A stretch of 64,000 bases of DNA, taken from Neorhizobium huautlense (lineage in GTDB: Bacteria; Pseudomonadota; Alphaproteobacteria; Rhizobiales; Rhizobiaceae). Shown here one piece after another: positions 6,438 to 37,775 of the stretch. Within the stretch, counting starts at the first letter, position 1; every line of letters begins with the position of its first letter. A model generated the notes under the pieces. It ran no database searches, was not told the DNA's origin, and worked only from the letters and a program-made list of their open reading frames with translations. The DNA lies in the NCBI RefSeq assembly GCF_002968575.1, contig NZ_PVBM01000008.1, positions 1 through 64,000 on the forward strand, given 5' to 3'. A program made the position numbers and the translations under genes.

Positions 6438-6476
6438 GATAGAGATTACGTTCGTTAACATATTCGACGTGTAATG

Positions 6477-6508
6477 CCGCCAGGAATGATGAGATTCGTT
6501 TCTGGCGG
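6477..6508 (+). other. 10-bp stem-loop between pump and channel genes
   Basis: CCGCCAGGAA (6477-6486) pairs with TTTCTGGCGG (6499-6508), with one G-U pair and a 12-base loop. No T tract follows. It lies 40 bases after the pump stop codon and may adjust mRNA stability or partial termination before the outer-membrane gene. Confidence 0.4.
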
Positions 6509-6520
6509 ATAAATCGGAAG

Positions 6521-6535
6521 CGGCTTAAAAAGCCG
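6521..6535 (+). other. short stem-loop CGGCTT-AAA-AAGCCG
   Basis: A perfect 6-bp hairpin with a 3-base loop, 33 bases before the outer-membrane gene start. It is followed by ACTTTC, too short a T run for a confident terminator. With the hairpin at 6477-6508 it makes a paired structure in this gap. Confidence 0.3.
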
Positions 6536-6568
6536 ACTTTCGCCGTTGTAGGGCACTGGGACAGAAAA

Positions 6569-8002
6569 ATGTTATCCATTCGTATTGTTGCTCCTCTCAC
6601 TCTGCTGTTGCTCTCGGGCTGCGTTGTCGGTCCCGACCACACCGCGCCGGAGATTGCCCTGCCGGGTAAGTTCGCCGAAGCCAAGGCAGCCAGTAACGGG
6701 GATGTCTCTCAAGTCGCTTGGTGGAAGGCCTTCAACGACAGCCGTCTGAACGGTTATGTCCAGCAGGGTCTCAACCAGAACCTCGACATTCTGCAGGCGC
6801 TTGAACGCATCAACGCCGCACAGGCGAATGTCACCATTGCCGGCGCAGGCAGCCTTCCCTCGTTGGATCTCTCAGCCTCCAGCACCACGACCGGCGTGCA
6901 CACCAAGGCCGGAACAACCTCGTTCGACAGAACCACGGTCAGCGGCGGCAGCGCCGATGCCTCCTGGTTCCTCGACCTGTTCGGCCTTTATCGCCGATCC
7001 AAGGAAAGTGCCCTCGCCAGCCTTGACGCGTCCTACGCTGCAGCCGACGTGGCCCGCCTCACCTATCTGTCGCAGGTCGCGGCAGCCTATATCGACGTTC
7101 GGTATTACCAGGAGCGGATCGCGATCGCCCGCCAGAACCTGGGCTCGCGGCGCGAAACGCTGGACCTTACGAAGCTTCAGCTGGAAGCGGGCGCCGCTTC
7201 CCGTCTGGATGTCGTTCAGTCGGAAGGCCTTGTGAACTCCACCCTGGCTGAAATTCCGGGCCTCGAGACCCAGTTCCGTACCGCAGCCCATCGCATTGCG
7301 ACGCTTCTCGGCCAGCCGGCTTCGTCGCTGGTGCCGGAGCTGCAGAGAGGCGCACGCCAGCCGGTTCCCCGGTTCAACACCAAGGCCGGCATTCCGGCTG
7401 ACCTGATCCGCAATCGTCCGGATATCCGTGCGGCGGAGCGTCAATTGGCATCCGCAGTGGCGGAAATCGGCGTTGCCGAAGCCCAGCTTTATCCGGCGAT
7501 CACGCTCGGCGGTTCCATTTCGCCGCGTTACAATGCCATTGCCGGCGCCTTGGACACCCGCTCGCTGACGTGGTCCTTCGGGCCGCAGCTCAGCCTGCCG
7601 ATCTTTGACGGCGGACGCCTCAAGGGCAACGTGAAGCTCGCGGAATCGACCGCCCGCGAAGCCTATCTCAACTGGAAGCAGAGCGTTCTCGACGCCGTCG
7701 AGGAAGTGGAAAATGCGCTTGCCGCCGTTGCCCGTGATCGCCGCACCGTGGATGCCCTGCAGGCGACGGTGAAGTCCTATCAGGAGGCGCTGCAGCTTGC
7801 GACCGCAAGCTACCGGGACGGCGCTTCGTCGCTGCTCGACGTTCTCGACGCACAGCGTCAGGTTTCCACCGCCCAGGCAAACCTTGCCCAGGCCGTGCAG
7901 CAAGTGGCGCAGGACTACGTCGCGCTCAACGTCGCGATCGGCGGCGGTTACGCCTTCGGCGCGGCCGACACCAAGGTGGCCTCTGTCGTCGTAACCAAAT
8001 AA
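6569..8002 (+). CDS. outer-membrane efflux lipoprotein (NodT/OprM family)
   Basis: Third part of the tripartite pump: a trimeric channel through the outer membrane. The 477-residue product starts with a lipoprotein signal and lipobox LLSGC, so Cys18 should be lipidated. WWKAFNDSRLNGYVQQGLNQNLDI near residues 50-75 is the typical NodT-family opening. Two OEP repeats follow, with long Ala/Gln/Glu-rich helices; IPADLIRNRPDIRAAERQLASA near residue 275 is the family hallmark opening the second half. The length is normal. It is 131 bases downstream of the pump gene in the same direction and ends at a strong terminator. Confidence 0.94.
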   Translation: MLSIRIVAPLTLLLLSGCVVGPDHTAPEIALPGKFAEAKAASNGDVSQVAWWKAFNDSRLNGYVQQGLNQNLDILQALERINAAQANVTIAGAGSLPSLDLSASSTTTGVHTKAGTTSFDRTTVSGGSADASWFLDLFGLYRRSKESALASLDASYAAADVARLTYLSQVAAAYIDVRYYQERIAIARQNLGSRRETLDLTKLQLEAGAASRLDVVQSEGLVNSTLAEIPGLETQFRTAAHRIATLLGQPASSLVPELQRGARQPVPRFNTKAGIPADLIRNRPDIRAAERQLASAVAEIGVAEAQLYPAITLGGSISPRYNAIAGALDTRSLTWSFGPQLSLPIFDGGRLKGNVKLAESTAREAYLNWKQSVLDAVEEVENALAAVARDRRTVDALQATVKSYQEALQLATASYRDGASSLLDVLDAQRQVSTAQANLAQAVQQVAQDYVALNVAIGGGYAFGAADTKVASVVVTK

Positions 8003-8085: not shown

Positions 8086-8655
8086 TCAGTTCTTGGCACG
8101 CTCGACGTAGGAATTGTCTTCCGTGGCAATAACGACGCGTGTGCCGGCATCGATATGCGGCGGGACCATCGTCCGAACCCCGTTCGAGAGAATTGCCGGC
8201 TTGTAGGACGAGGAGGCCGTCTGGCCCTTCACGACCGGTTCCGTTTCGACGATCTCAAGCGTGACGTGACGCGGCAGCTGCAGAGCCAGTGCAACGCCCT
8301 CATGCATGGAAAGAATGCAGGTCATGCCTTCCTGGAGATAGGCTTTCTGGTCGCCCATCGTCTCGACGTCGACCACCACCTGGTCGTAAGTTTCCGGGTT
8401 CATGAAGTGGAAACCTTCGCCGTCTTCGTAGAGATACTGGAAATTCACGTCCTCGACGAAGGCGCGCTCCACCTGCTCGGTGGTCCGCCAGCGCTCCGAT
8501 ACCTTAACGCCATCGACGATACGGCGCATATTGACCTGGGTGACCGGCGTGCCTTTGCCGGGGTGGAAGTTCTCGGCGGTGAGAACGACATAGAGTTTGC
8601 CGTCGACTTCGAGGACGTTGCCCTTGCGGACCGAAGAAGCGATGATCTTGACCAT
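8086..8655 (-). CDS. efp: translation elongation factor P
   Basis: EF-P relieves ribosomes stalled at polyproline stretches. The 189-residue product has the usual three-domain length. Domain I carries the modification loop HPGKGTP with Lys34 at the tip, the residue that receives beta-lysine in the EpmA/EpmB pathway. The C-terminal OB domain ends with [19 protein letters not shown], close to the EF-P signature. The genes for the modifying enzymes start 166 bases away in the opposite direction, so the modified form is expected here. Confidence 0.98.
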
Positions 8656-8821
8656 GATAATCCTTATATAGCCTGGCGGCTTGTCACTGCCGAAAATGCG
8701 TCGTAGAGGACCGGGCGATAACCGGCCTGAAGGACGGATCGTCTGTTTTCCGCGCGGGAACTACCCTAAAACCACGCGAAGTGGAAGCCTCGCCGCGGAG
8801 AACCGGCAAAGAAAGCCATAA

Positions 8822-9892
8822 ATGAACGTGCTCCGACCCGCCACATCCCGGACGCCCTGGTGGACTCCGGAAAGCCACATCGACCGCCGGCCCTTCCTGA
8901 TAGGGCGCAATGCGGTGCAGACTGCCCTGCGCGGCTTTTTCGGCAAGCACGACTTCATCGAGGTGGATACGGCCGCCTTGCAGGTCTCTCCCGGCAATGA
9001 GACCCATTTGCATGCCTTCGCAACGGAGGCCATTGCAATTGATGGCAAGAGGGCACCCCTCTACCTGCACACCTCCCCCGAATTTGCGGCAAAGAAGCTG
9101 TTGGCGGCCGGCGAGGAACGCATCTTCACCTTTGCGCATGTCTACCGAAACCGGGAACGCGGGCCGCTGCATCATCCCGAATTCACCATGCTCGAGTGGT
9201 ATCGCGCCGGCGAAAGCTACGAACAGCTCATGGACGATTGCACGCATATGCTGGCGTTGGCAGCCGAAACGGCAAAGACCAAGCGTTTTGTTTTCCGTCA
9301 GATGGAAATTGATCCCTTTGCGGAGCCGGAACGCCTGACGCTCGCCGAAGCCTTCCACCGCTTTGCCAGCATCGATTTGCTTGCATCCGTTGCGACGAGC
9401 GGCGACACGAACCGCGATCTTCTTGCAACGGGTCTGAAACAAGCCGGCATACGGTTCTCGGAGGACGATACCTGGGCCGATCTTTTCAGCAAGGTGCTCG
9501 TGGAGAAGATCGAGCCCAATCTCGGGCAAGGCCGGGCAACCATCCTCTGCGAATATCCGGTTTCCGAGGCAGCGCTGGCACGGCCTTCCGCTCATGATCC
9601 TCGTGTGGCCGAGCGCTTTGAGCTTTATGCCTGCGGCGTCGAATTGGCGAACGCTTTCGGAGAATTGACGGATGCCGGCGAGCAGAGGCGCCGCTTCGAG
9701 CATGAGATGGCGGAAAAGGCGCGCATCTACGGCGAACGTTATCCGCTGGACGAGGATTTCCTCGCTGCGCTTTCTGTCATGCCGGCGGCAAGCGGCGCGG
9801 CGCTCGGCTTCGATCGGCTCGCCATGCTGGCGACGGGTGCGAGCCGCATCGAACAGGTGATGTGGGCGCCGGTTGCGGAGGTTTTTGAATGA
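8822..9892 (+). CDS. epmA: EF-P--(R)-beta-lysine ligase (GenX/PoxA/YjeA)
   Basis: A lysyl-tRNA-synthetase paralogue that lacks the anticodon-binding domain and attaches (R)-beta-lysine to Lys34 of EF-P. The 356-residue product has the class II core: motif 1 region around FFGKHDFIEVDTAALQVSPGNETHL, motif 2 in HVYRNRERGPLHHPEFTMLEWY near residues 109-130, and motif 3 in GAALGFDRLAMLATGAS near the end. Length and absence of an OB domain separate it from LysRS. It overlaps epmB by 4 bases (ATGA), so the two are translationally coupled. Confidence 0.96.
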   Translation: MNVLRPATSRTPWWTPESHIDRRPFLIGRNAVQTALRGFFGKHDFIEVDTAALQVSPGNETHLHAFATEAIAIDGKRAPLYLHTSPEFAAKKLLAAGEERIFTFAHVYRNRERGPLHHPEFTMLEWYRAGESYEQLMDDCTHMLALAAETAKTKRFVFRQMEIDPFAEPERLTLAEAFHRFASIDLLASVATSGDTNRDLLATGLKQAGIRFSEDDTWADLFSKVLVEKIEPNLGQGRATILCEYPVSEAALARPSAHDPRVAERFELYACGVELANAFGELTDAGEQRRRFEHEMAEKARIYGERYPLDEDFLAALSVMPAASGAALGFDRLAMLATGASRIEQVMWAPVAEVFE

Positions 9893-10935
9893 CCGCGGCA
9901 CGTTCGTTAAAAACCGCCGATGAGCTGGCATCCGCCGGACTGATCGAACCGGGCAAACTCCCAGCCATTCGCGCCGTCGCGGACCGTTATGCCATAGCCC
10001 TGACCCCGGCCGTGATTTCGCTGATCGACCCCGCCGACCCGCAAGATCCTGTCGCCCGGCAGTTCGTGCCAGATCCGGCCGAGTTGCTGGCGACGCCGGA
10101 AGAACGCGCCGACCCCATCGGCGATCAGGCGCACAGTCCGGTAAAGGGCATCGTCCATCGTTATCCGGACCGCGTGCTGTTGAAGGCCGTGCATATCTGC
10201 CCGGTCTATTGCCGCTTCTGTTTTCGCCGCGAAATGGTCGGTCCGCAGGGCGACGGGACATTGGCACCTGAAGAGTTGGCCGCGGCGCTCGCCTATATCC
10301 GGGAGCACAGCGAAATCTGGGAAGTGATCCTGACTGGCGGCGATCCGCTGGTCCTGTCGCCGCGGCGGCTTTCAGCAATCATGCGGGGACTTGAAAAGAT
10401 CCCGCATGTGAAGATCGTCCGCTTCCATACGCGGGTTCCGGTGGTCGAGCCGGACCGCGTGGACGAGGCGATGATCGCCGCCCTGAAGGAAAGCGGCAAG
10501 GTGATCTATGTGGCGCTTCACGCCAACCATCCCCGCGAACTGAGCGATACCGCCCGCGCCGCGTGCGCGCGGTTGATCGATGCAGGCATTCCCATGGTCA
10601 GCCAGACGGTGCTGCTCAAGGGCATCAACGATGATCCGGTCGTGCTCGGCGACCTGATGAAGGCTTTTGTCGAAACCCGGGTCAAACCCTATTATCTGCA
10701 TCATCCGGATCTTGCGCCCGGCACCAGCCATTTCCGGCTGGATATCGCCGATGGGCAGAAGATCGTTGCGGCGCTGCGCGGAAATGTTTCCGGGCTGTGC
10801 CAGCCGACCTATGTCCTGGATATTCCGGGCGGTCATGGCAAGGCGATGATCGGCAAAAGTGCGGTACGCACGGAAGGCGGCTGCTATTCGGTCAGCGATT
10901 TCCGCGGCGAGGAGCACAGATATCCTCCGAAGTGA
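9889..10935 (+). CDS. epmB: EF-P beta-lysylation protein, radical-SAM lysine 2,3-aminomutase
   Basis: Converts L-alpha-lysine to (R)-beta-lysine for EpmA. The 348-residue product has the radical-SAM cluster CxxxCxxC in CPVYCRFC (Cys104, Cys108, Cys111), the ILTGGDPLVLS glycine-rich SAM segment, and a C-terminal GGHGKAMIGKS segment holding the PLP-binding lysine region. It is shorter than clostridial lysine 2,3-aminomutase, as EpmB proteins are. The start ATG overlaps the epmA stop. The gene is followed by an 0.8-kb gene-free stretch. Confidence 0.95.
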   Translation: MTAARSLKTADELASAGLIEPGKLPAIRAVADRYAIALTPAVISLIDPADPQDPVARQFVPDPAELLATPEERADPIGDQAHSPVKGIVHRYPDRVLLKAVHICPVYCRFCFRREMVGPQGDGTLAPEELAAALAYIREHSEIWEVILTGGDPLVLSPRRLSAIMRGLEKIPHVKIVRFHTRVPVVEPDRVDEAMIAALKESGKVIYVALHANHPRELSDTARAACARLIDAGIPMVSQTVLLKGINDDPVVLGDLMKAFVETRVKPYYLHHPDLAPGTSHFRLDIADGQKIVAALRGNVSGLCQPTYVLDIPGGHGKAMIGKSAVRTEGGCYSVSDFRGEEHRYPPK

Positions 10936-11728: not shown

Positions 11729-13757
<2,029 letters not shown>

Positions 13758-13943
13758 GTGAATGCGAGCATCAAAAACCCGGCGGGCGCCCGTGTCAAGC
13801 CAAAGCTGGCCATGCGGATATCTCGGATTTTAGCGAATCCCGCAGCCCTAACTTCACGACGTTTCTTACCGGAATTTTATGCTTTCCGACGTAGACAGTG
13901 TTCCCGGCGATGAACGCAAATTCCAGTCATTGGAGATGTCGAG

Positions 13944-14195
13944 ATGAACGAGACTATTCGCGAACTGCTGGCACGGGTCGGCGGGCTTCCGGTCGCAGTG
14001 ACCGAACTTGAAGATGCGGCCGATCTTTATGCGGCCGGGCTTTCCTCCTTTGCCTCCGTGCAGCTGATGCTGGCCATCGAAGAGGCTTTCGACATCGAGT
14101 TTCCCGACAGCCTCCTGAATCGCAAGTCCTTTGCCAGCATCTCGGCGATCGAGCAGACGGTCGCCCAGATCGTGAAAGCCCGTGAGGCTGCGTGA
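13944..14195 (+). CDS. acyl/peptidyl carrier protein, probable partner of the amino acid:[carrier protein] ligase
   Basis: An 83-residue acidic carrier protein. The 4'-phosphopantetheine site is in AAGLSSFASVQLML; Ser35 takes the position of the serine in the usual DSL motif, with Ser instead of Asp before it. The helix 3 segment AIEEAFDIEFPDSLL is typical of carriers used by atypical seryl-tRNA-synthetase-like ligases. A GGAGATGTCGAG ribosome-binding site precedes ATG 13944. It is the first gene of a five-gene operon; its TGA overlaps the start of the next gene. Loading with a small amino acid (glycine or alanine in studied homologues) is inferred from the ligase two genes downstream. Confidence 0.88.
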   Translation: MNETIRELLARVGGLPVAVTELEDAADLYAAGLSSFASVQLMLAIEEAFDIEFPDSLLNRKSFASISAIEQTVAQIVKAREAA

Positions 14196-15376
14196 TGAGC
14201 CTCCCAGCCTTTGCCGCCGACATGACGCTCGGCGCACGCGCCCGCCGAGTGGCGGAGGTCGCGGCCGAAAATGCCGATAGCGTTGATCAGGAAGCCCGCT
14301 TTCCGCAGGAAGCGGTCGATGCCATGAGGGCCGAACGCCTGCTCGGCATTCAGGTCCCCATATCGCTTGGCGGCGAGGGGGCTTCGACACAGGAGATCGC
14401 GGAGGTCTGCTCCATACTGGGACAGGCATGCGCGGCAAGCGCCATGGTCTTCGCCATGCACCAGATCAAGGTGTCAAGCCTGGTCGAGCATGGCGGCGAC
14501 AGCGAGTGGCATAGGGATTTCATGCGCGAGCTTTGCGCCCGCCAGCTTCTTGTCGCCTCCGCGACAACGGAAGGCGGCATCGGTGGCAATCTGCGCAATT
14601 CCATCTGCGCCATCGAGATCGACGGAGACATCTGCCGCCTGACGAAGGACGCGACCGTCATTTCTTACGGCGCTCATGCGGACGTCATCATGGTGACCTC
14701 CCGCGCCCACGCCGACGCGGCTCCGGGTGACCAGGTCATGACCGTTTTCAGGAAGAACCAGTATACGCTGGAAAAGACGGTGGACTGGGATACGCTCGGC
14801 ATGCGGGGCACCTGCTCTGACGGCTTTATCTTCAAGGGCGAAGCCCCTGCGGCGCAGATCTTCCCGAAACCGTTCGCCGAGATAGCGGCGCAGAGCATGC
14901 TTGCCTCGTCGCACCTCCTCTGGAGCGCGGTATGGTATGGCATCGCAGCCGATGCGGTATTGCGTGCGCAGGCCTTCGTGCGCGCCGCCGCTCGCAAGGC
15001 GAATGGCACCACGCCGCCCGGCGCGTTGAGACTCGCGGAAACATCCAACCTGCTGCAGCTCCTGAAGTCGAACATTCTTTCGGGCCTGAAGGCCTACGAG
15101 GACGCCAAGGCTGAGCCGGACCAGCTTTCCTCGATGGCGTTTTCGATCGCCATGAACAACGTTAAGCTCGCCTCGTCGGAGACGATCCTGACCATCATCA
15201 ACCAGGCGATGATCATCTGCGGCATCATGGGTTACAAGAACGGCACGCCCTACAGCCTCGGCCGGCATCTGCGCGATGCCCATTCGGCCCAGCTGATGAT
15301 TTCCAACGACCGCATTCTGGGCAACACGTCGACCATGCTGCTCGTACAGAAACCGGACACCAGCCTTCTCGGCTGA
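14195..15376 (+). CDS. acyl-CoA-dehydrogenase-like flavoprotein acting in the carrier-protein operon
   Basis: A 393-residue protein with acyl-CoA dehydrogenase layout: N-terminal helices, a middle beta domain (LLVASATTEGGIGGNLRNS, then GICRLTKDATVISYGAHAD-like strands) and a C-terminal helical domain (YGIAADAVLRAQAFVRAAAR, GYKNGTPYSLGRHLRDAHSAQL). ATG 14195 overlaps the carrier stop as TGATG. The glutamate that serves as base in MCAD-type enzymes (in the RDAxxxQIYEGT segment) aligns with Ile369 here, and I found no clear IVD-type substitute. The real substrate may be an aminoacyl thioester on the neighbouring carrier protein, as for the prolyl-carrier dehydrogenases of pyrrole biosynthesis, but that is inference. 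Confidence 0.8.
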   Translation: MSLPAFAADMTLGARARRVAEVAAENADSVDQEARFPQEAVDAMRAERLLGIQVPISLGGEGASTQEIAEVCSILGQACAASAMVFAMHQIKVSSLVEHGGDSEWHRDFMRELCARQLLVASATTEGGIGGNLRNSICAIEIDGDICRLTKDATVISYGAHADVIMVTSRAHADAAPGDQVMTVFRKNQYTLEKTVDWDTLGMRGTCSDGFIFKGEAPAAQIFPKPFAEIAAQSMLASSHLLWSAVWYGIAADAVLRAQAFVRAAARKANGTTPPGALRLAETSNLLQLLKSNILSGLKAYEDAKAEPDQLSSMAFSIAMNNVKLASSETILTIINQAMIICGIMGYKNGTPYSLGRHLRDAHSAQLMISNDRILGNTSTMLLVQKPDTSLLG

Positions 15377-15426
15377 CGCCCACCCGTCAATGATTGCCCG
15401 TCAAATGAATTGAATGAGGTGAAGCC

Positions 15427-16338
15427 ATGGATATGCAAGTTTCCTTTCTCGACCGCCTGTTCGACGCAGGCCTTCTGATCGACACCGGCGTCGACGGGCT
15501 TTATGGCCGCAGCGGCCAGTTCGAAGATGTGATTACGGCCTTCGAGCGGCTGATCGACAGGATCGGTGGTGCCGACGGCGCGGAAGCCATGCGCTTTCCG
15601 CCCGGCATGAACCGCGCCTTCTTCGAGCAGAGCGGCTACATGAAGAGCTTCCCGCAGCTCGCCGGCACGGTGCATTCCTTCTGCGGCAACGAGCTCGACC
15701 ACATGAGCCTGTTGAAATGCATGGAAGTGGGCGAGGAAGACTGGACGAAGGGTCAGGAAGCGACCGATATCGTGCTGACGCCGGCCGCCTGCTATCCGCT
15801 CTACCCGACCGTTGCCCGCCGCGGCAATCTGCCGAAGTCCGGCGCTCTCTATGATCTGCAGAGCTACTGCTTCCGCCACGAGCCCTCCAAGGACCCGGCC
15901 CGCCAGCAGCTGTTCCGCATGCGTGAATATGTCTGCATGGGCACGGAACAACACGTCACCGATTTCCGCCAGCGCTGGATGGATCGCGGCGTCGAGATGA
16001 TGAAGTCGGTCGGCCTCGAGGTGACGATCGACATCGCCAACGACCCCTTCTTCGGCCGCGCCGGCAAGATGCTGGTCAACAACCAGCGCGACCAGAACCT
16101 CAAGTTCGAGCTCCTGATTCCGATCACCTCGGTTGCCAAGCCGACCGCCTGCATGAGCTTCAACTATCATCAGGATAGTTTCGGTCTGAAATGGGGCCTG
16201 AACCTGGAAGACGGCAGCGTCGCACACACGGCCTGCGTCGGTTTCGGGCTGGAGCGGATCGCACTCGCTCTCTTCCACACCCACGGTCTCGACGTGAAAG
16301 AGTGGCCGGAATCCGTCCGCGCCACCCTGTGGGGCTAA
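15427..16338 (+). CDS. amino acid--[acyl-carrier-protein] ligase (truncated class II seryl-tRNA-synthetase-like)
   Basis: Activates a small amino acid with ATP and transfers it to the phosphopantetheine arm of a carrier protein instead of tRNA. The 303-residue product is a class II synthetase core without the tRNA-binding arm. Motif 2 lies in [20 protein letters not shown] (about 148-167) and motif 3 in [13 protein letters not shown] (about 270-282). The zinc ligands of the Bradyrhizobium glycine enzyme (Cys131, Glu176, Cys279) match Cys122, Glu167 and Cys270 with one constant offset, so the active-site metal should be kept. Carrier and ligase genes flank a flavoprotein gene. The downstream DUF1839 gene starts 4 bases later. 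Glycine or alanine is expected as substrate from family knowledge. Confidence 0.92.
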
Positions 16339-16342
16339 GGCC

Positions 16343-17326
16343 ATGGCTGGAGTTCTAGCCGGTCTTGATCCGGCCAGCTACAGGCCGCATGCGCTGCATT
16401 CGGCGGAGCGCATCTGGCCGGAGACCAATTGTTATGTGGATCTCTGGATCGAGGTACTTTCGGCGCAGGGCCTGCCGCCGGAAGCCATGCTCGGCTTCAC
16501 ACTGACCCAGGACTTCGAGGGCGACCAGTTCACCTTCTTCAAGGTGCCGCTGGAGGATCTCGAAGCGCTTTACGGCATCCGCGTCACGGAACTGGCGATC
16601 TTCGACAGGCCGGAGCGGCATGTGCTCGAGCAAATCGGCCGCGGCCGGTTGACGCTGCTGGAGCTCGACAGCTACTTCCTGCCGGATACGCGCGGAGTGA
16701 CCTATCGCCAGGAGCATGGCAAGACGACGGTGGCGGTAAACCGGCTCGATCTGGAGAAGCGCGAGCTGGACTATTTTCACAACGGCGGCTTCTTCCATTT
16801 GTCCAGTGAAGATTTCGACGGCCTGTTCCAGACGAATGCGGCCCCGGAGGCGCTGCCCTTCCTGCCCTATACCGAATTCGCAAAGTTTCCGGCGGCCTAT
16901 CCGGCTGCCAGAGACATGCGCGAGACGGCGTGGAAACTCTTGCGGCACCATTTCGCCAGACGGCCGGAGCAAAACCCGATCAGGGCTTTCGCCGAGGTCT
17001 TCCCGACCCAGGTCGAGCGCCTGGCCGAACGCGATTTCGGCTTCTTCCACAAATATGCCTTCAACACGCTGAGGCAGGTGGGGGCCAATTTCGAACTTCT
17101 GGCTAGCCATCTCGACTGGCTGAATAGCAAGGGTTTTGCGCAGGCGGAAAAACATGCGCTGAGAATTGCTGAAGTCGCGAAGTCTACGCAATTCCAGCTT
17201 GCCCGCGCCGTCACCCGCAAGAAATTTGACCCGCTGGCAACGGCGCTCGATCCGGCCGTCGAAGCCTGGGATCTGCTGGCGGAAGAACTGGCCATGACAT
17301 TGGCCCAGACCCGCGAGGCCGCGTGA
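16343..17326 (+). CDS. DUF1839 family protein
   Basis: A 327-residue protein of unknown biochemical function, recognised as DUF1839 by its N-terminal HALHSAERIWPETNCYVDLWIEVL segment, the GFTLTQDFEGDQFTFFKVPLEDLE segment and its constant company with amino acid:[carrier protein] ligases. No signal peptide or membrane segment is seen, so it is cytosolic. It sits between the ligase (4 bases upstream) and a family-2 glycosidase (GTGA overlap). A role as the acyltransferase or acceptor-binding protein that takes the aminoacyl group off the carrier is a reasonable guess, but no catalytic motif proves it. Confidence 0.82.
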   Translation: MAGVLAGLDPASYRPHALHSAERIWPETNCYVDLWIEVLSAQGLPPEAMLGFTLTQDFEGDQFTFFKVPLEDLEALYGIRVTELAIFDRPERHVLEQIGRGRLTLLELDSYFLPDTRGVTYRQEHGKTTVAVNRLDLEKRELDYFHNGGFFHLSSEDFDGLFQTNAAPEALPFLPYTEFAKFPAAYPAARDMRETAWKLLRHHFARRPEQNPIRAFAEVFPTQVERLAERDFGFFHKYAFNTLRQVGANFELLASHLDWLNSKGFAQAEKHALRIAEVAKSTQFQLARAVTRKKFDPLATALDPAVEAWDLLAEELAMTLAQTREAA

Positions 17327-19752
17327 GCGCACTTTCGCTGATCGGCACTGAGACCAGTCTTCTTTCGGAGGGCTGGTCATTGCTTTTGAGCGAGCGCGAC
17401 GCCTATTCACTGCCAAGTCATCTGCCGCCTGCCCTCGACGATATTCCGGCGACCGTGCCGGGCACGGCGGCGGCCGCTCTGGAAGCCGCCGGTCGCTTCG
17501 ACCGCGATAAACCGGAGCCTCTGATCGAGAAAGATGCCTGGTATCGCCGCTCGCTTGCCGGCGAGGCACCCGGTACCGCAATCCTTCGCTTTGACGGCCT
17601 CGCCACGGTGGGGGAGGTTTATCTCGGTGATCGGCTGGTCCTCTCGTTTGACAGCATGTTCGAAAGTTACAACGTGCCGGTAGAGCTGACCGGCGGCGAG
17701 ACCCTGTCGATCTGTTTTCGCGCGCTGAAACCGCATCTGGACAAAACCGGACCGCGTGCCCGCTGGCGCCCAAGGCTCATGAACAATCAGGGCCTCCGGC
17801 TGGTTCGCACCACCTCGCTGGGCTTCATGCCCGGCTGGTGCCCCGAAATCCATGCCGTCGGTCCATGGCGACCGGTGTCGCTGGTGAGGCCGGGCGAAGA
17901 CTGCCTTACCGACCTTTCGATCGCCACGGACTTCGTCAGCCACGAGGGCGGCATCCTCAGGGTCGCCTTTTCCTATGAGGGCCCGGCACGCGATCTCCGT
18001 CTGATCTGCAACGGCCGAGAGGCCGAGTTTTCGCTCGCCGACGAAAGATATTCAGCCGAACTTCGTCTGCCTGACGCAAAACCCTGGTGGCCGCATACCC
18101 ATGGTGAGCCTGCGCTTTACGACGTCACCCTGCAGATCGACGGAAAGGCGACGTTGCTTGCCAGAACCGGCTTTCGAAACATGACAGTCGATCGCGGCAC
18201 CGATGGCAATGACTTCGCGGTCCTCATCAACGGCGAGAAGATTTTCTGCCGCGGAGCCGTCTGGACGACAGCCGACATCGTGAAACTGCCGGGCGAGCGC
18301 GCCGCCTATGAGCCATGGCTGAGGCTCGCGAGGGATGCGGGCATGAACATGATCCGTATTCCTGGCGTCGCGGCCTACGAGAGCGGTGACTTCTTCGCGC
18401 TTTGCGACGAGCTCGGGCTTTTGGTCTGGCAGGATTTCATGTTCGCCAATTTCGATTATCCCGCGACCGATCCGGATTTCGTGATTCACGTGAAAAAGGA
18501 AATCTCCCAGTTCCTGAACGCGACACAAGCGTCTCCATCGCTTGCTATCCTTTGCGGCGGCAGTGAAATCTATCAGCAGGGGGCCATGCTCGGTCTGCCG
18601 GAGCGCATCTGGAAAGGAGCGTTCTGCGAAGAGATTCTGGCAGAGCTCGCCGCTCAATACCGGCCGGACCTGCCCTATGTGGCTAATTCCCCTTCCAGCG
18701 GAGCTTTGCCCTTCCATCCCAATGCCGGTGTCGCGCATTACTACGGCGTCGGCGCCTATAAGCGCCCGCTCGAAGATGCGCGGCGGGCGAATGTGCGCTT
18801 TGCCGCCGAATGCCTGGCCTTTTCCAACCTTTCCGGAACCGAGACATTGGCCGGCGGCAAGGCCGGCATTCCTCGCGACGGAGGTGCCGACTGGGATTTC
18901 GAGGACGTGCGCGACCACTATCTCGGCGATCTCTACGCCGTCGACCCGCAGGAGCTTCGGCAGAATGACTTTGAGCGCTATCTCACGCTCTCCCGCGTCG
19001 TTACCGGGGAGGTGATGGAAGCTACTTTTGCCGAATGGCGACGGCCGGGCTCCACCTGCAACGGTGCCGTGGTATTTACCTTTCAGGACGTGATGCCAGG
19101 CCTCGGATGGGGCGTGATCGGCGTTGACGGTCTGCCGAAACCGGCCTGGTACGCGTTGAAAAGGTCGTTTCGGCCGCTTCAAGTCCTCTTCACCGACGAG
19201 GGCACGAATGGGCTCGATGTTCACCTCCTGAACGAGATGCCAGGCAGCTTACCCGTAAGTCTGGAGATTGCCTGCTTGCGGGACGGCAAGCTTCCCGTGG
19301 TTTCCGGCCGCCGCGAGCTGATGCTGCCTGCTCGCGGTAGCGAAAGCCTGGCCTGTACCGACCTCTTCGGCGCCTTCTTCGACACCGGCTATGCCTACCG
19401 CTTCGGACCACCCTCCCACGACGTGACCGTGGCCCGATTGAGGCATGGCGAGACAGGTGCAATTCTCGCAGAGGCCTTTCATTTTCCGCTCGGACGCCCC
19501 TCTGCACTTCATGATGCCGAGATAAGCGCGGCGCTGGTCGAGGATCCCTCAGGGTGCTGGCTGGAACTTGCAACCGACCTTTTCGCACAGTCGGTCAATC
19601 TGGATGTTCCAGGCTACCGCGCTGCCGACAACTGGTTCCATCTGGCGCCGGGCGATAAGAAACGCGTGCGGCTTGTCGCAGAGGTTACTGCGGTTGATCG
19701 GCCGCAGGGTGTCGTCCGCTCACTCGGCAGCCGCCGCCCCATATATTTCTGA
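17323..19752 (+). CDS. glycoside hydrolase family 2 protein (beta-mannosidase-like)
   Basis: An 809-residue cytosolic protein with no signal peptide. It shows the GH2 order: N-terminal jelly-roll sugar-binding domain (WYRRSLAGEAPGTAILRFDGL), immunoglobulin-like domain, TIM barrel (INGEKIFCRGAVWTTADIV, DAGMNMIRIPGVAAYESGDFF), and C-terminal beta domains. The acid/base glutamate appears as Glu415 in LAILCGGSEIYQ, where beta-mannosidases usually have NE, so the residue before it is Ser rather than Asn. The likely nucleophile is Glu496 in VRFAAECLAFSN. GTG 17323 overlaps the DUF1839 stop. Being last in the carrier-protein operon suggests it trims or remodels the sugar acceptor of that pathway. 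Its end overlaps the convergent hydrolase gene by 33 bases. Confidence 0.85.
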   Translation: MSALSLIGTETSLLSEGWSLLLSERDAYSLPSHLPPALDDIPATVPGTAAAALEAAGRFDRDKPEPLIEKDAWYRRSLAGEAPGTAILRFDGLATVGEVYLGDRLVLSFDSMFESYNVPVELTGGETLSICFRALKPHLDKTGPRARWRPRLMNNQGLRLVRTTSLGFMPGWCPEIHAVGPWRPVSLVRPGEDCLTDLSIATDFVSHEGGILRVAFSYEGPARDLRLICNGREAEFSLADERYSAELRLPDAKPWWPHTHGEPALYDVTLQIDGKATLLARTGFRNMTVDRGTDGNDFAVLINGEKIFCRGAVWTTADIVKLPGERAAYEPWLRLARDAGMNMIRIPGVAAYESGDFFALCDELGLLVWQDFMFANFDYPATDPDFVIHVKKEISQFLNATQASPSLAILCGGSEIYQQGAMLGLPERIWKGAFCEEILAELAAQYRPDLPYVANSPSSGALPFHPNAGVAHYYGVGAYKRPLEDARRANVRFAAECLAFSNLSGTETLAGGKAGIPRDGGADWDFEDVRDHYLGDLYAVDPQELRQNDFERYLTLSRVVTGEVMEATFAEWRRPGSTCNGAVVFTFQDVMPGLGWGVIGVDGLPKPAWYALKRSFRPLQVLFTDEGTNGLDVHLLNEMPGSLPVSLEIACLRDGKLPVVSGRRELMLPARGSESLACTDLFGAFFDTGYAYRFGPPSHDVTVARLRHGETGAILAEAFHFPLGRPSALHDAEISAALVEDPSGCWLELATDLFAQSVNLDVPGYRAADNWFHLAPGDKKRVRLVAEVTAVDRPQGVVRSLGSRRPIYF

Positions 19753-21594
19753 TTTTTCCGTGCCGGCCGACGGCGCAAGGCGAAAAGCCAATTGCTGCAC
19801 GGCTTGTAGATAGACGTCACGGGCGTGATCCGGCGTCAGATTGTGGTCCGCATCCGGAATGATAGTCGCCGATACATTGGGAAACCGGGCAAGGCCCGCA
19901 CCGTCGCGGCCAAAATAGAAATTGTAGTGGTCGAGGCCGAGATCATTTTCGCTATAGATCAGCGAGACCTGGACGCCGCGGCGTTTGAGCCGGTCGAAAG
20001 CGCGATAGATCTCCCGCCCCTCTGAGGTAAAATCCCGAAAAACGTGGGTCATCCGGTGGGAAAGCCGCTTGGTAAGAGCCTTGGCAATATTACGGATCGC
20101 CGCACGAAGATCGACGTCACCTTGAAGAACCCGCTTGAAGGTCTCGGCGCGCAGCACCCGTTTTCCGTAATCATCGAGGCTGCGGGTACCGTTGACGATG
20201 GCATCCTCGACCGAGCGCCCCGGGCGCCATCGAAAGACGGCCGGATTGACCAACACACCGCCCGCGATGCGGGCGTCGGTCAGGGCTGACTGAAATCCGA
20301 GATAGGCGCCGCTGCAACGTCCCGCGACAATCACAGGCGCCAATGCACGAGTTTCAAGAAAATCAATCGCCTCCGATACATCGCCGTTCTGCGTGGAATG
20401 ATAAAGGACCTGTTCCGGACGGCCGGGCACGGGGGGGCTGTCGCCGGCATTGGCGGGATCGAAGCGGAGGGAGGGGATACCGGATCGGGCAAGCATCCGC
20501 GCCATCGCCGCCGTCGTGCGTCCCCAGCCGGCATGGCGGTCATAGGCCGAAGTGAGGAACAGCACCGTCGCAGCGCCGCGCTCGTGCAGCGGCTCGCAGA
20601 CGATACCGGAGAGCCGGTTGTTCGACCCGAAACGGACCGGGGTTTCAGCGAAACCGTCACCGGCGAGCGGCGAAACGATGACCGGTTGAGGCCACGTCGC
20701 CAAGTGCTCCGGAATGGGGATAGCCGCGATCCAGTCCACAAGCCTGTCTGCCACCGTCAGCGGCAGTTTCGAAATTGCCGGGTTGGAAACAAGTTTGTCG
20801 TAACCGTCAAAAGCCTGTTCGGTAACGGTGACGCCAAGTGTCGCGAGGCGCGAGGCGAATTCCCGGTCCGCCGGCCGGTCGGCGCGGCCGATCACCAGAG
20901 CCTGCATCGCAGGTGCCCGCTCCAGCGCCATCAGATTGACTTTGCGGATGTTGTCGGCAATTTCAGCCGGCATTGTCAGCGACGCAATCGAGACGCCCGA
21001 CTTGTCACGCTGCGCTTCGGAAAGACCAAGGTTCTCGTCCACCACCTTTGACCAGACGGCAAGCTCCCGGAGATGGAGACGGCCGGATATGACCGGTGCA
21101 AGATAGGCGATCGCTTCCAGGCCCTCGATCTGCCCCGCGGCAGCGGTGGCGACAACTGCGCCGAGGCCTTGCGACACAACGACGATCCGCTCACAGCCGG
21201 AAAGCACCTTGAGCCGCCCGGCTGCGGCAATCAGGCTATCGGACCAGACGGAAAGGCCTTCTGTAAAATCCTTTCCATCCAGCGCGTCGCCTGTTCCAGG
21301 ATAATCGAAGCGAAGGCTCGCAATGCCGCGATCCGCGAGTTTTTCAGAAATGATGCGCCAGAACTTCCGGGTGCACATCTCCTCAAGACCCCAGGGACTG
21401 GCGAAGAGGACGGCGAGGCCGGAAACCGCTGTATCCGGTGACGGGGGCGCAAACAGGCCGACCGTGCTGCCGAAGGTGAAAGACTCGGCGGCCTGCCGCG
21501 GCTGCAACGGCGATGCCTGCACTTCCAGCCGGGCTGTCTTCTCTGCGTCCATCATGGTCGTCTTGGCAATCTCCAGATCATCCTTTCGACGCAT
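19720..21594 (-). CDS. tandem alpha/beta-hydrolase protein
   Basis: About 624 residues from ATG 21594 (ATG 21555 is a plausible alternative with GGAG upstream). It contains two alpha/beta-hydrolase units. Unit 1 has LFASPWGLEE, RFDYPGTGDALDG and the nucleophile elbow VVVSQGLGA with serine; the expected histidine position reads DGYDKLV and seems to lack His. Unit 2 has LFLTSAYDRHAGWGRT, RFDPANAGDSPP and the elbow AGRCSGAYLG, which puts cysteine in the nucleophile place, and keeps a C-terminal histidine in PDADHNLTPDHARD. It resembles hydrolases linked to exopolysaccharide systems. It follows the GH5 gene by 43 bases in the same direction and converges on the glycosidase gene. Confidence 0.8.
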   Translation of the reverse strand: MRRKDDLEIAKTTMMDAEKTARLEVQASPLQPRQAAESFTFGSTVGLFAPPSPDTAVSGLAVLFASPWGLEEMCTRKFWRIISEKLADRGIASLRFDYPGTGDALDGKDFTEGLSVWSDSLIAAAGRLKVLSGCERIVVVSQGLGAVVATAAAGQIEGLEAIAYLAPVISGRLHLRELAVWSKVVDENLGLSEAQRDKSGVSIASLTMPAEIADNIRKVNLMALERAPAMQALVIGRADRPADREFASRLATLGVTVTEQAFDGYDKLVSNPAISKLPLTVADRLVDWIAAIPIPEHLATWPQPVIVSPLAGDGFAETPVRFGSNNRLSGIVCEPLHERGAATVLFLTSAYDRHAGWGRTTAAMARMLARSGIPSLRFDPANAGDSPPVPGRPEQVLYHSTQNGDVSEAIDFLETRALAPVIVAGRCSGAYLGFQSALTDARIAGGVLVNPAVFRWRPGRSVEDAIVNGTRSLDDYGKRVLRAETFKRVLQGDVDLRAAIRNIAKALTKRLSHRMTHVFRDFTSEGREIYRAFDRLKRRGVQVSLIYSENDLGLDHYNFYFGRDGAGLARFPNVSATIIPDADHNLTPDHARDVYLQAVQQLAFRLAPSAGTEKSEIYGAAAAE

Positions 21595-23974: not shown

Positions 23975-26620
23975 ATGTCCGACGGCATGCCCGAACTCAC
24001 CGACGCGTCGTCAACCGATCTTGCGATCGAGACGGTAGAGGGAGTTTTGCGGGAACACTACGGGCTGTCCGGGCAGGTATTTCCGATCGAGGGGCGGCAG
24101 AACCCCTATTTCCTGATCGACAACGGCCATATGCGCTATCTCCTGAAGACGGCGCCTGCCGATGCCCCCCTTCCGGAGATCGAGGCCGAACACGCGCTGA
24201 TGCGGCATATTCTGCGCGGCACCGACGGCCCGCTGGTTCCCGAGCCGGTGCTTACCAAAGACGGCGCAGACACGGTTGTGCTACCGCTTGAAGGAGAAGA
24301 CAGGCGCCTGCGTCTCCTGACCTTTCTGGAGGGTGCTCCGCTGCCTGCGGACGACACGTTGTCGGATAAAGCGATCGCCGCCTTCGGATCGATCTCGGCG
24401 GCACTCACCAGAAGCCTCGAAGGCTTTGACAATCCGCTGTTGGAACGTGAGCCGGAGAGCGATCTGCGAAAGGCAGGCCCGCAGACGGTAACGCTCCTGG
24501 CTGAAGTAACCGATCAGGAAACACGCGACGTTATTGCCAAGGCCATGGTGACGGCGCTGAGGCGCATCCAGCCGCTGGGCCCAAGCCTGCGGATCGCGGC
24601 CGTCCACCAGAACCTGGATGCCGGAACCGTCGTGGGCAACACGACGGAGGCCGGCTGGCTGCCGACCGGCGTAACGGATTTTACCGGAATCGCCAAGAGC
24701 TGGCTTGTTGCGGGATTGGCAAATACCTGCGCATTCCTGTTGGCAAATCGGGACGGTGATGCCCTGGCACTCTTACCGGCCATTCGCGCCTATCACGACC
24801 TCTATCCGCTCACTCTCACGGAGATCGAAGCACTCTGGCCGCTGGTCGTCGCCCGCACGGGAATTCTGACGGCCGAAGCCGAGAGCAAACTGGCACAGCG
24901 GCCCGCTGATCCGCAGGCAAAGGAGGAAACGGAAAAACGGCAAGCCGTGCTGCGCGCTGCAACAGCAATCTCTCCGGCGCTGGTGTTTGCAGCATTTCTC
25001 GAGGCGACCGGCATGACAAATCCGCTGCCGGAAATGATCCCCATGCTGCCGGACATCGATCCGGAAACGATCCGGACCGTCGATCTCAGCGTCACCAGTC
25101 CTCTGCTTTACGGCGGCAACTGGATCGACCCGGAAAACGATTGGAAAATGCTCGCCCGCATCGCCAGGGAAACCGGGCGCTGCAGCACGCGCTACGGCGA
25201 ATATCGTCTTTCGAAGAGCCTTGCGGACCCGCGGCAGGAACCGGAAAACTTCGCGCTCCACGTGGACGTTTGCGTGCCAGCAGGAACGCCGGCGCTGGCG
25301 CCCTTTGCCGGAACGTTGAAAAGCGTCGGATCGCGGATCGTTCTTTCGGGAGCAAGCCTTGCACTGCATCTGGAAGGTTTGGACTGCGCGCTTCCGGACG
25401 GCAACGAGCTCAGTATGGGCGACCCGATCGGTGCCGTTGCCGGCGCCGAAAATTCCGTTGGCGGGCTGCGTCTACGTTTTTGCCGGGACCCCGAACTCCT
25501 GCCGCCGCTCTTCTGTACGGCGGAGAAGGTGGGCACCTGGTCCAGGCTATGCCCCTCGCCGGCAGCACTCCTGAGAGTCGTCACCGATGCACCGGTACCC
25601 GTCCACCTGAGCAAACCGGTCCGCGGCTGGAAAGAGCATCTTTTCGACGCTGCGGGCCGCTGCCTGCTCGATCTGCGGGAAGACGCATCGCTGATCGGCC
25701 ACAGCCACCCGCGCGTCGCAGCGGCGAGTTATCGCCAGCATCTGCTGCTGAATGGGCCCTCTTCCGAGCCATCCGAAGCGGCAGAGCTTTTGGCCCAGCG
25801 CCTGAAGGCGCTCGCGCCAACGGGGCTTGATGACTTATATGTCCTGTGCGGGCGGCGTGATGCATTTCATTACGCCTTGGCGCTCACGCGCAACCATACC
25901 GGCCGACACGAGATCGTCAGTCTCACTGGAGTTTCGGGATTAACCCACGATCCCGCGATAAACAGTGCCGGCGGCGTGCAAGGCATGATAGATTCTTTGG
26001 ATGCGGGGGACAAAGCCGGTCTGCTGCTTGCTGGCTACACGCAGCCTTTCGACGGCCTTCCGGAGATCTTGGAGGCGCTTCGACGCAATGGCGGCTTGCT
26101 TGTCATCGACGAAACGCGCTCCGGCTGGGGCAGATCCGGCCGCCATCTCTGGGGATACGAGGCACTGGGACTGTCGCCCGACATACTGGTGGCAGGACTT
26201 CCCGGAGAAGATATTGCCGTATGCTTCGCTCGCGAAAATCTCGCGCCCGCCCCAGACGACAGCATGGAAAAGCCGAGCCCTGTTGCCTGTTCGGTCGCCG
26301 CAGCCATGCTGGAAATCTGGTCGGAAGAGGACTTGCGGGACAATGCCCGGCTTGTCGGGGACCACCTGAAATCAGCCCTTGAGCAGCTGGCGCGCCGTCA
26401 TCATGCAATCCAGGATGTAACCGGCAGTGGCCTATGCCTTGCCCTGAACTTCAAGAATGAGGAACTCGCCGAGAAGATAACGGCGCTACTGCGAAGGGAG
26501 CGCGTCTTGGCGAATACCGAAGCGCCGGCTTCGCTCCTGATCGTCCCGCCGCTTTGCTTTGCCCGCGACAGCGCCGACCGACTGCTCGAGCGGCTCGAGA
26601 CCGCTCTCGCGCAAAATTGA
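23975..26620 (+). CDS. three-domain protein: kinase-like + M23-like + class III aminotransferase-like, catalytic residues apparently lost
   Basis: An 881-residue protein. Residues about 20-290 resemble an aminoglycoside-phosphotransferase/homoserine-kinase-type kinase; about 380-510 a peptidase M23-like beta domain (DVCVPAGTPALAPFAGTLKS); about 540-880 a class III aminotransferase (HLFDAAGRCLLDL, GHSHPRV, LLVIDETRSGWGRSG). This order matches long rhizobial proteins annotated as class III aminotransferases. Here the HGDxxxxN loop reads HQNLDAGT (Asp to Asn213, Asn to Thr218). The M23 metal-ligand His before Asp431 is Ala. The PLP lysine in the usual PDIVTMGKP reads PDILVAGLP, so Lys is Leu742, and the SGSEANE segment reads CGRRDAF. 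It may be a scaffold or sensor rather than an enzyme. Reading frame and codon use look normal, so it is not an obvious pseudogene. Confidence 0.75.
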   Translation: MSDGMPELTDASSTDLAIETVEGVLREHYGLSGQVFPIEGRQNPYFLIDNGHMRYLLKTAPADAPLPEIEAEHALMRHILRGTDGPLVPEPVLTKDGADTVVLPLEGEDRRLRLLTFLEGAPLPADDTLSDKAIAAFGSISAALTRSLEGFDNPLLEREPESDLRKAGPQTVTLLAEVTDQETRDVIAKAMVTALRRIQPLGPSLRIAAVHQNLDAGTVVGNTTEAGWLPTGVTDFTGIAKSWLVAGLANTCAFLLANRDGDALALLPAIRAYHDLYPLTLTEIEALWPLVVARTGILTAEAESKLAQRPADPQAKEETEKRQAVLRAATAISPALVFAAFLEATGMTNPLPEMIPMLPDIDPETIRTVDLSVTSPLLYGGNWIDPENDWKMLARIARETGRCSTRYGEYRLSKSLADPRQEPENFALHVDVCVPAGTPALAPFAGTLKSVGSRIVLSGASLALHLEGLDCALPDGNELSMGDPIGAVAGAENSVGGLRLRFCRDPELLPPLFCTAEKVGTWSRLCPSPAALLRVVTDAPVPVHLSKPVRGWKEHLFDAAGRCLLDLREDASLIGHSHPRVAAASYRQHLLLNGPSSEPSEAAELLAQRLKALAPTGLDDLYVLCGRRDAFHYALALTRNHTGRHEIVSLTGVSGLTHDPAINSAGGVQGMIDSLDAGDKAGLLLAGYTQPFDGLPEILEALRRNGGLLVIDETRSGWGRSGRHLWGYEALGLSPDILVAGLPGEDIAVCFARENLAPAPDDSMEKPSPVACSVAAAMLEIWSEEDLRDNARLVGDHLKSALEQLARRHHAIQDVTGSGLCLALNFKNEELAEKITALLRRERVLANTEAPASLLIVPPLCFARDSADRLLERLETALAQN

Positions 26621-37473: not shown

Positions 37474-37511
37474 CGTATCGTCCTTTCGCCCTCCACCCGA
37501 GGGCCGTTCCA

Positions 37512-37690: not shown

Positions 37691-37697
37691 CTTGGCC

Positions 37698-37770: not shown

Positions 37771-37775
37771 GAAAG

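Follow-up and report, generated by a model that had tools for sequence, protein, structure and literature searches.

An amino acid transfer encoded by an operon of Agrobacterium was predicted by Iyer et al. (2010) (PMC2922099), and the role of the charged carrier protein has been described in print as unknown (PMC9437257). In Bradyrhizobium, the gene of the ligase Bll0957 is located beside bll0958, which is annotated as acyl-CoA dehydrogenase, and both proteins are found at increased levels in a phaR mutant (PMC10888616). An earlier study assigned the DUF1839 family to the papain superfamily, proposed a Cys-(Thr/Ser)-His triad and guessed a role on cell-wall glycans from the gene context (PMC10318531). 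For lincosamides, the enzyme CcbD was described to link proline from its carrier as an amide to the amine of a thiooctose in a ping-pong reaction employing a Cys-His-Glu triad, with the sugar being bound in part by a neighbouring subunit (PMC12945683), and CtaG of the closthioamide pathway was proposed to act as peptidyl transferase between carriers (PMC6772006). In this study, we have analysed the operon at positions 13944-19752 of a 64,000-nucleotide stretch of Neorhizobium huautlense (contig NZ_PVBM01000008.1, positions 1 to 64,000; this entire stretch is referred to as the window), which is an orthologous copy of the operon in Agrobacterium. Its five open reading frames follow head to tail on the forward strand:

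13944..14195, + strand: carrier protein, 83 amino acids (PP-binding, 36.4 bits; NF005480, 119 bits, cut-off 72)
14192..15376 (GTG start, 394 amino acids) or 14195..15376 (ATG start, 393 amino acids), + strand: flavoprotein with acyl-CoA dehydrogenase fold (Acyl-CoA_dh_N, Acyl-CoA_dh_1)
15427..16338, + strand: amino acid:[carrier protein] ligase, 303 amino acids (NF005479, 514.8 bits, cut-off 357)
16343..17326, + strand: DUF1839 protein, predicted papain-fold aminoacyl transferase (PF08893, 438 bits, E 1.9e-131)
16430-16432, 16715-16717, 16724-16726 and 16778-16780: codons of Cys30, H125, T128 and H146 of DUF1839
17323..19752, + strand: GH2 glycosidase, 809 amino acids (Glyco_hydro_2_N2, Ig_mannosidase)
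18562-18567, + strand: S414-E415 of GH2, with the putative acid/base, placed by alignment with 2vjx
18808-18810, + strand: E496 of GH2, the putative nucleophile, placed by the same alignment

We propose that the ligase would charge the carrier with an amino acid, that the flavoprotein would modify the aminoacyl group and that DUF1839 would pass it to a sugar-containing acceptor, an aminoacyl-transfer pathway to which we assign a probability of about 0.52. This proposal, like the hypothesis formulated previously for this DNA (hereafter the sequence-only reading), refines the prediction from 2010 and is not new in itself. Our contribution concerns the match of the DUF1839 fold to CcbD, AziU and CtaG, the link between Cys30 and the presence of the ligase, the flavoprotein lacking the catalytic glutamate, the Ser-Glu motif of GH2, the quantified linkage to polysaccharide genes and a hydrolase as possible partner. 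A limited literature search has not revealed a published connection between CcbD and DUF1839. With DUF1839, there is now a concrete candidate for the transfer enzyme of a gene set that had long lacked an explanation, and if this protein is viewed as a CcbD-like transferase that employs Cys30 as nucleophile, the question can be addressed with a single enzyme assay and a single point mutant. If the acceptor was a precursor of an exopolysaccharide, the operon would show the recruitment of relatives of aminoacyl-tRNA synthetases for surface decoration in rhizobia and Burkholderia.

The compact layout of the operon that was noted in the sequence-only reading, with genes mostly joined by one to four bases, holds for the window except for one gap of 50 bases (junctions in order: -1 or -4, +50, +4 and -4 bases), and the median gaps across loci amount to -1, 5, 4 and 16 bases (n=84, 91, 91 and 89 pairs). 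The ambiguity at the first junction concerns the start of the flavoprotein, for which the ATG at 14195, overlapping by one base with the stop of the carrier gene (TGATG), is more likely than the GTG at 14192, three bases upstream. Scanning genome contigs with an alignment of DUF1839 has identified at least 561 confirmed relatives, and our locus counts refer to the best 80, which are mostly from Rhizobiaceae and their relatives. The five genes are found on one strand and in one order in 79 of these 80 loci, the exception being L022, where a contig end falls inside the flavoprotein gene. Since order and strand are retained to this extent, the gene set is not a product of chance. The same arrangement is found in 11 of 12 further stretches (L099-L110), including four from Burkholderiaceae (L104, L106, L107 and L108), with the twelfth (L105) containing a lone second copy of DUF1839. 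A survey of gene order, as suggested in the sequence-only reading, has thus established conservation beyond this strain. Among the matches listed, the closest named DUF1839 loci are those of a Rhizobiales isolate (94% identity) and of Neorhizobium vignae (85%).

The predicted structure of DUF1839 points to its role in the transfer step. The AlphaFold2 model, calculated from 16 sequences, shows a mean predicted local distance difference test score (pLDDT) of 90.1 and a predicted template modelling score of 0.90. Used as query in Foldseek, it retrieved 19 chains at E ≤0.001, all of which are entries of CcbD, AziU2/U3 or CtaG, with E-values between 5e-7 and 1.4e-4. Structural re-alignment superimposed 287 residues on CcbD (7yn2; Z 19.8, root mean square deviation 3.5), 286 residues on a chain of 7wuw that is either AziU2 or AziU3 (Z 18.7, deviation 4.1) and 274 residues on CtaG (9qvs; Z 18.3, deviation 3.8). 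The top 14 rows of this comparison cover 270-290 residues at Z 16.3 to 19.8. The next row is a designed protein that reaches only Z 8.8 over 125 residues, and the matches to CcbD, AziU and CtaG are thus well above background and extend over both halves of the protein. As modelled, DUF1839 would consist of a papain-like domain and a helical C-terminal half and resemble the three enzymes over its full length, at a sequence identity of 11-15%. By sequence alone, no credible solved relative of DUF1839 was detected (best E 0.53 with a single sequence and 0.17 with a profile). Similarly, BtrH_N (PF14399) gave no row for DUF1839 at E 0.1 and no match in any of 101 genomes of the order at E 0.001.

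A papain fold with a likely nucleophilic cysteine would also be found in a thioesterase or hydrolase, and DUF1839 could in principle clear a carrier that was wrongly charged or oxidised, with the flavoprotein making the actual product. Such editing would be in line with the ten same-order loci described below, all of which contain flavoprotein and ligase without DUF1839. We regard this explanation as improbable, since the full-length matches are to enzymes that share the helical C-terminal half, whereas papain-type hydrolases match the N-terminal part only, with Z under 7, and since an editing enzyme would leave the GH2 partner unexplained.

For the proposed transfer by DUF1839, the catalytic residue would be Cys30, which forms the first residue of a helix comprising residues 30-41 in the model. 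Among the first 94 sequences, Cys30 is present in 92, H125 and H146 in all 94 and T128 in 92, the two exceptions at Cys30 being operon copies from Burkholderiaceae. Two short peptide patterns served to find the best 80 loci, and since one of them requires Cys or Arg at position 30, the conservation of Cys30 in this set is partly selected. Two censuses relate DUF1839 to the ligase. Among 398 genomes of Pseudomonadota, DUF1839 is found in 16 and the ligase over cut-off in 28 (44 at E 0.001), and all 16 genomes with DUF1839 also contain the ligase over cut-off. The second census covers 200 genomes of one family, which we read as Burkholderiaceae, and employs the family profile, which carries no bias for Cys30. 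Here, DUF1839 is present in 85 genomes, the ligase over cut-off in 83 and both in 78 (Fisher p 1.5e-40, with kinship ignored). The 85 genomes contain 122 copies of DUF1839, excluding a 47-residue fragment in genome G635, whose two copies represent one duplicated contig end. At least one copy with Cys30 is found in each of the 78 genomes with ligase (45 with Cys in all copies, 33 mixed) and in two of the seven without (G621 and G635; Fisher p 6.4e-7), the other five containing Cys-less copies only (G490, G514, G565, G643 and G655). Altogether, 84 of the 122 copies hold Cys30, 83 of them combined with H125, T128 and H146, and T128 is lost in 18 of the 38 Cys-less copies (to Ala or Ser in 17 and to Val in one). 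In the cleanest case, G565 (locus L261), a carrier, a flavoprotein and a DUF1839 protein with Cys replaced by Ala reside beside polysaccharide genes, whereas both ligase and GH2 have been lost. The straightforward interpretation is that Cys30 is required wherever the carrier becomes charged. The full-length fold match of the model and the retention of Cys30 with the ligase support the claim that DUF1839 moves the aminoacyl group off the carrier, and we consider it likely to be an acyl transferase that works through Cys30.

A strict rule by which loss of the ligase always entails loss of the cysteine is contradicted by G621 and G635. The DUF1839 locus of G621 retains the carrier, with flavoprotein, ligase and GH2 being absent, and none of the four partner genes is found beside DUF1839 in G635, so that both look like decaying operons. 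In the G635 locus (L263), which is found at a contig end, a large segment around DUF1839 is duplicated in inverted orientation, probably as an assembly artefact. In a group of Burkholderiaceae loci (L106, L108, L225-L233 and L235-L240), the DUF1839 copy of the operon has no Cys30 and a copy with Cys30 is found elsewhere in the genome, in most cases oriented oppositely and no more than about 5 kb away. By analogy to the AziU2-U3 complex, our guess would be that the Cys-less protein serves as partner subunit.

The preceding step, the charging of the carrier, is the best defined part of the pathway. The ligase is closely related to enzymes of known structure (4h2w, E 1.3e-97; 3mey, which is Bll0957, E 1.8e-92), and its residues C122, E167 and C270 align with Cys, Glu and Cys at positions 151, 196 and 299 of the 4h2w ligase chain, or 131, 176 and 279 after subtraction of a 20-residue tag, whose identity as zinc ligands and whose numbering in Bll0957 and 4h2w we take as given. 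All three are invariant in 92 of 92 ligase sequences, in accordance with the initial assignment of intact zinc-ligand positions. The protein comprises the catalytic core only, without tRNA-binding domain, since residues 8-300 align with the crystallised ligase; its alignment with the profile of type-2 seryl-tRNA synthetases (positions 307-503) is confined to residues 111-299. In the carrier, the phosphopantetheine site is Ser35 (codon 14046-14048), which is invariant in 84 of 84 sequences, and its best solved relatives are chain C of 4h2w and Atu2571 (2jq4), both with E about 7e-32; a match to the DltC profile is below cut-off. Because ligase and carrier match a crystallised pair and because zinc positions and Ser35 are intact, charging with a small amino acid is to be expected, as the sequence-only reading had anticipated, and relatives of the ligase prefer glycine or alanine. 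From this kinship, we predict with high confidence that the ligase charges the carrier.

Remoter homologues of the ligase below cut-off (L150-L155) showed partner genes in none of six loci. Three ligase loci without DUF1839 (L144 at 4588-7176, L146 and L147) contain an additional carrier-like protein and an AMP-binding enzyme, and L144, the one on which Pfam was run, also an Abhydrolase_3 protein; these gene sets perhaps reflect another use of the charged carrier.

The flavoprotein (pLDDT of the AlphaFold2 model 91.1) is a member of the acyl-CoA dehydrogenase superfamily by profile and by fold, the latter with Z about 40 and with monooxygenases following closely. The alignment column that we take to hold the catalytic glutamate of short- and medium-chain acyl-CoA dehydrogenases is occupied by Ile in 100 and by Val in one of 101 sequences, and no acidic residue is found at positions 231-252 of the window protein (numbered from the ATG at 14195), a helix whose equivalent carries the base in some relatives. 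As the usual catalytic glutamate is missing, plain dehydrogenation is less likely. The fold itself does not separate dehydrogenases from monooxygenases, as Z is 39-42 for both among the 50 matches listed. Hits of the flavoprotein include, by title, ColB1 and a prolyl-ACP dehydrogenase, and enzymes of this fold are known to act on amino acids tethered to a carrier. Since the flavoprotein adjoins the ligase in all ten same-order loci without DUF1839 (10 of 12 DUF1839-less ligase genomes, leaving out G159 and G365), its substrate is probably the charged carrier, a role that we assign with moderate confidence. The earlier suggestion that the aminoacyl thioester is oxidised or otherwise modified on the carrier fits this pairing with the ligase.

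The last gene of the operon encodes a GH2 protein with PF22666 and PF17753 over cut-off and PF00703 just below (22.9 vs 23), whose best solved match is the beta-mannosidase 2vjx (E 1.7e-43). Both catalytic glutamates, E415 and E496, are invariant in 90 of 90 sequences. The acid/base is preceded by Ser in 89 of them and by Asn in one, in contrast to the Asn-Glu of beta-mannosidases (GH2_13). In other GH2 subfamilies, a Ser at this position is tied to substrates that are aminated or otherwise substituted at C2 (PMC12243196). None of the 90 sequences shows a strongly hydrophobic N-terminus in a simple hydropathy test, which makes the proposed cytosolic location reasonable. Both features fit, without proving it, an intracellular enzyme that would act on the glycoside of an amino sugar. 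That it acts on the product of the pathway or its precursor is a tentative assignment, for which the odds are slightly unfavourable.

A sugar as acceptor is also suggested by the genes surrounding the operon in other genomes. In chosen representatives, Pfam identified Wzz/Wzc, Wza, a WcaJ-type sugar transferase, ManC, Wzy, Wzx and glycosyltransferases as recurrent neighbours. A panel of 15 exopolysaccharide proteins from operon loci, including one representative without Pfam match (L027), was compared to each locus with its own proteins excluded. It matched 7 of the 12 test loci, which include the lone DUF1839 copy of L105 (p 5.9e-6), 32 of the best 80 loci (p 3.2e-7) and none of 40 control stretches, which were chosen by hand from the same genomes as the test loci or close ones and may contain other polysaccharide genes. 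Of another 16 stretches from Burkholderiaceae, each about 17 kb long, 10 were positive, comprising 6 of 12 with the operon or a remnant and all 4 with a second, Cys-less copy of DUF1839, each of which also contains a WcaJ gene.

Besides these genes, a hydrolase is frequently found near the operon:

19720..21594, - strand (a longer start at 21792 is possible): tandem alpha/beta hydrolase, candidate sixth partner (Abhydrolase_6; TIGR03100 and TIGR03101 below cut-off)

In the window, its gene is convergent with that of GH2, with an overlap of 33 bases, and relatives are present in 59 of 92 loci vs none of the 40 controls. In L087 (14872-18183), a Wzx-type flippase and the tandem hydrolase are fused into a single protein of 1103 amino acids, with which proteins of eight other loci cluster. 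We have also inspected four Burkholderiaceae ligase loci without local DUF1839 (L320-L323), from a larger number of such loci; in the genome of L320 (G575), DUF1839 is present elsewhere. In L320, the hydrolase gene is the next one on the strand of the ligase gene, and in L321 and L322, the two genes adjoin. L321 contains two ligase genes about 5 kb apart and in opposite orientation in a polysaccharide-like locus, one of which overlaps the hydrolase gene. The hydrolase is a possible further or alternative partner.

As the alpha/beta-hydrolase fold is often used for esters, its association with the ligase in loci devoid of DUF1839 (L320-L322) would agree with a different linkage, where DUF1839 puts the amino acid on a hydroxyl of a lipid- or nucleotide-linked sugar, as in the esters of envelope polymers. 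The sugars of the polysaccharide preparation of the bec cluster from the Burkholderia pseudomallei group, namely glucose, galactose, rhamnose and mannose (PMC5507470), would be compatible with an ester if this cluster was related. In contrast, the product of CcbD is an amide and the Ser preceding the acid/base of GH2 is tied to C2-substituted sugars (PMC12243196), and we thus consider the formation of an ester quite unlikely.

In our preferred pathway, the ligase would adenylate a small amino acid and load it as thioester on the phosphopantetheine of the carrier, as known for its relatives. The flavoprotein may then alter the carrier-bound aminoacyl group, with a reaction of the oxygenase or oxidase type appearing more likely than a classical dehydrogenation. 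Subsequently, the group would be transferred to Cys30 of DUF1839, placed by the computed fold and the conservation of this residue, and from there in a ping-pong reaction to the sugar-containing acceptor, probably to an amine, as with CcbD and its thiooctose, and with lower likelihood to a hydroxyl. In many hosts, this acceptor might be related to a surface polysaccharide or glycolipid or serve as its precursor. The GH2 protein, as a cytosolic enzyme, might trim or recycle the glycoside of a sugar that is unusual at C2. That the acceptor contains a sugar appears rather more probable than the contrary, and, provided that it does, we favour an amide over an ester. The transfer to a sugar acceptor, as outlined in the sequence-only reading, finds partial support from the acceptor of CcbD, the exopolysaccharide neighbours elsewhere and the GH2 gene, and is disfavoured by the lack of such neighbours in the window.

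Several observations weigh against this pathway. The panel gave no match anywhere in the window at E 0.001, Pfam revealed no exopolysaccharide genes among ten flanking genes, and 24 of the 92 loci, some of them incomplete, lack both exopolysaccharide genes and the hydrolase. These features would be expected if the product was a soluble aminoacylated small molecule, such as a secondary metabolite or signal, instead of a surface glycan, with GH2 stripping a masking or carrier sugar. Also compatible with such a product are the N-termini of the four larger operon proteins of the window, none of which is hydrophobic in the hydropathy test, and the relatedness in fold to CcbD and CtaG, which originate from antibiotic pathways, as do AziU2/U3. 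The recurrent association with Wza, Wzc, WcaJ, ManC, Wzx and glycosyltransferases in Burkholderiaceae and several Rhizobiales and the flippase-hydrolase fusion of L087 argue in the opposite direction, and the neighbour clusters listed for the 80 loci include no exporter or regulator that constantly accompanies the operon. We thus assign the small molecule a low but appreciable likelihood. ATPases of ABC transporters form a cluster in 35 of the 80 loci, encoded on both strands.

Further points against the aminoacyl-transfer pathway concern its enzymes. Sequence profiles show no link of DUF1839 to CcbD or CtaG, and the triad described for DUF1839, Cys-(Thr/Ser)-His (PMC10318531), differs in order from the Cys-His-Glu of CcbD, with H125 being invariant as well. 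The statistic that connects Cys30 to the ligase ignores shared ancestry. G490, G514 and G565 hold a carrier, a flavoprotein and a Cys-less DUF1839 protein without ligase over cut-off, and since such copies are retained there, DUF1839 has some role that is independent of the cysteine. In G643 and G655, no operon genes are found near the remaining DUF1839 copy, which may simply be a paralogue. The loci L320-L323 show that ligase and flavoprotein do not always occur together, as the flavoprotein is intact in only one of them (L322, with carrier, flavoprotein and ligase), a remnant in L323 and neither in the other two. Finally, the repeat of a biofilm polysaccharide from B. cenocepacia is described without amino sugar (PMC7084887).

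A more specific reading would be a second route by which amino acids are attached to sugars, derived from aminoacyl-tRNA synthetases. Here, the ligase would charge the carrier, the glutamate-less flavoprotein would oxygenate the thioester, DUF1839 would act as a papain-fold transferase of rearranged triad that links the modified amino acid to the amino sugar of a polysaccharide precursor, and the Cys-less DUF1839 protein would be the partner subunit of an active copy in many Burkholderiaceae. In its entirety, this reading appears doubtful. Non-ribosomal peptide synthesis was considered and rejected, since Pfam detected no condensation or thioesterase domain in 17 window proteins (five from the operon, two downstream and ten flanking).

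In the window, the gene following that of the hydrolase encodes a GH5 protein with a hydrophobic N-terminus, and a protein of 881 amino acids combining APH phosphotransferase and class-III aminotransferase domains is located at 23975-26620. The wider flanks encode efflux proteins, elongation factor P, a paralogue of class II synthetases, a radical S-adenosylmethionine protein, ThiC, a formyltransferase and others. The ThiC gene (11729-13540) is located back to back with the operon and is preceded by a thiamine pyrophosphate riboswitch (13637-13766, - strand; 67.3 bits, gathering threshold 54.3). Upstream of thiC, Pfam places the elongation factor P gene, the synthetase paralogue and the radical S-adenosylmethionine protein at 8086-10935, the latter two of which we take to be EpmA-like and EpmB-like, respectively. 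Members of the cluster of this paralogue occur in 53 loci, the window being one of them, and a second synthetase relative is thus a frequent neighbour. Two divergent cobalamin riboswitches (37511-37703, - strand, and 37762-37963, + strand) are about 60 bases apart, beside what look like cobalamin genes.

Compared with described systems, the operon in the window shows the same order of five genes as that of Agrobacterium, whose carrier Atu2571 (2jq4) matches that of the window, and we find no architectural difference between the two. From the gene order, we presume that the ligase corresponds to Atu2573 and the DUF1839 protein to Atu2574, the uncharacterised gene considered by Iyer et al. With Bll0957 and its relative 4h2w, the window ligase shares the fold and the zinc positions, but the ten same-order loci of this type, which combine ligase and flavoprotein with a carrier in at least six cases, differ by the absence of DUF1839 and GH2. 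The lincosamide enzymes CcbD and LmbD, with their carriers CcbZ and LmbN, resemble the operon as a papain-type enzyme hands a carrier-bound amino acid to an amino sugar. They differ in the charging step, carried out by an adenylation protein (LmbC) instead of a ligase resembling aminoacyl-tRNA synthetases, in the proposed order of the triad and in a sequence that bears no detectable similarity to DUF1839, and no comparable flavoprotein or GH2 protein is named in the portions of that work considered here. CtaG and the azinomycin proteins AziU2/AziU3 share the overall fold of DUF1839 in different pathways, and the acceptor proposed for CtaG is not a sugar.

In the bec cluster, the acyl-CoA-dehydrogenase-domain gene becG is among those whose mutants show reduced biofilm, and the cluster also encodes a cyclic-nucleotide-binding protein, a glycosyl hydrolase, a lipid carrier sugar transferase and ManC (PMC5507470). 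Similar gene types are seen beside operon copies in Burkholderiaceae. The bep cluster of B. cenocepacia contains Bcam1334, a hydrolase of TIGR03100 (PMC3584217), the family to which part of the window hydrolase comes closest. A term search of the same paper found no mention of an acyl carrier (PMC3584217), and neither a ligase nor DUF1839 is named for bec or bep in the sections of these sources that describe the clusters. In DltABCD and AlmEFG, a carrier-bound amino acid is moved to an envelope polymer or glycolipid with the help of other ligases and membrane acyltransferases. The proposed combination of a carrier-dependent transfer by a papain-fold enzyme with charging by a synthetase-like ligase would set the operon apart from the known transfers of this kind.

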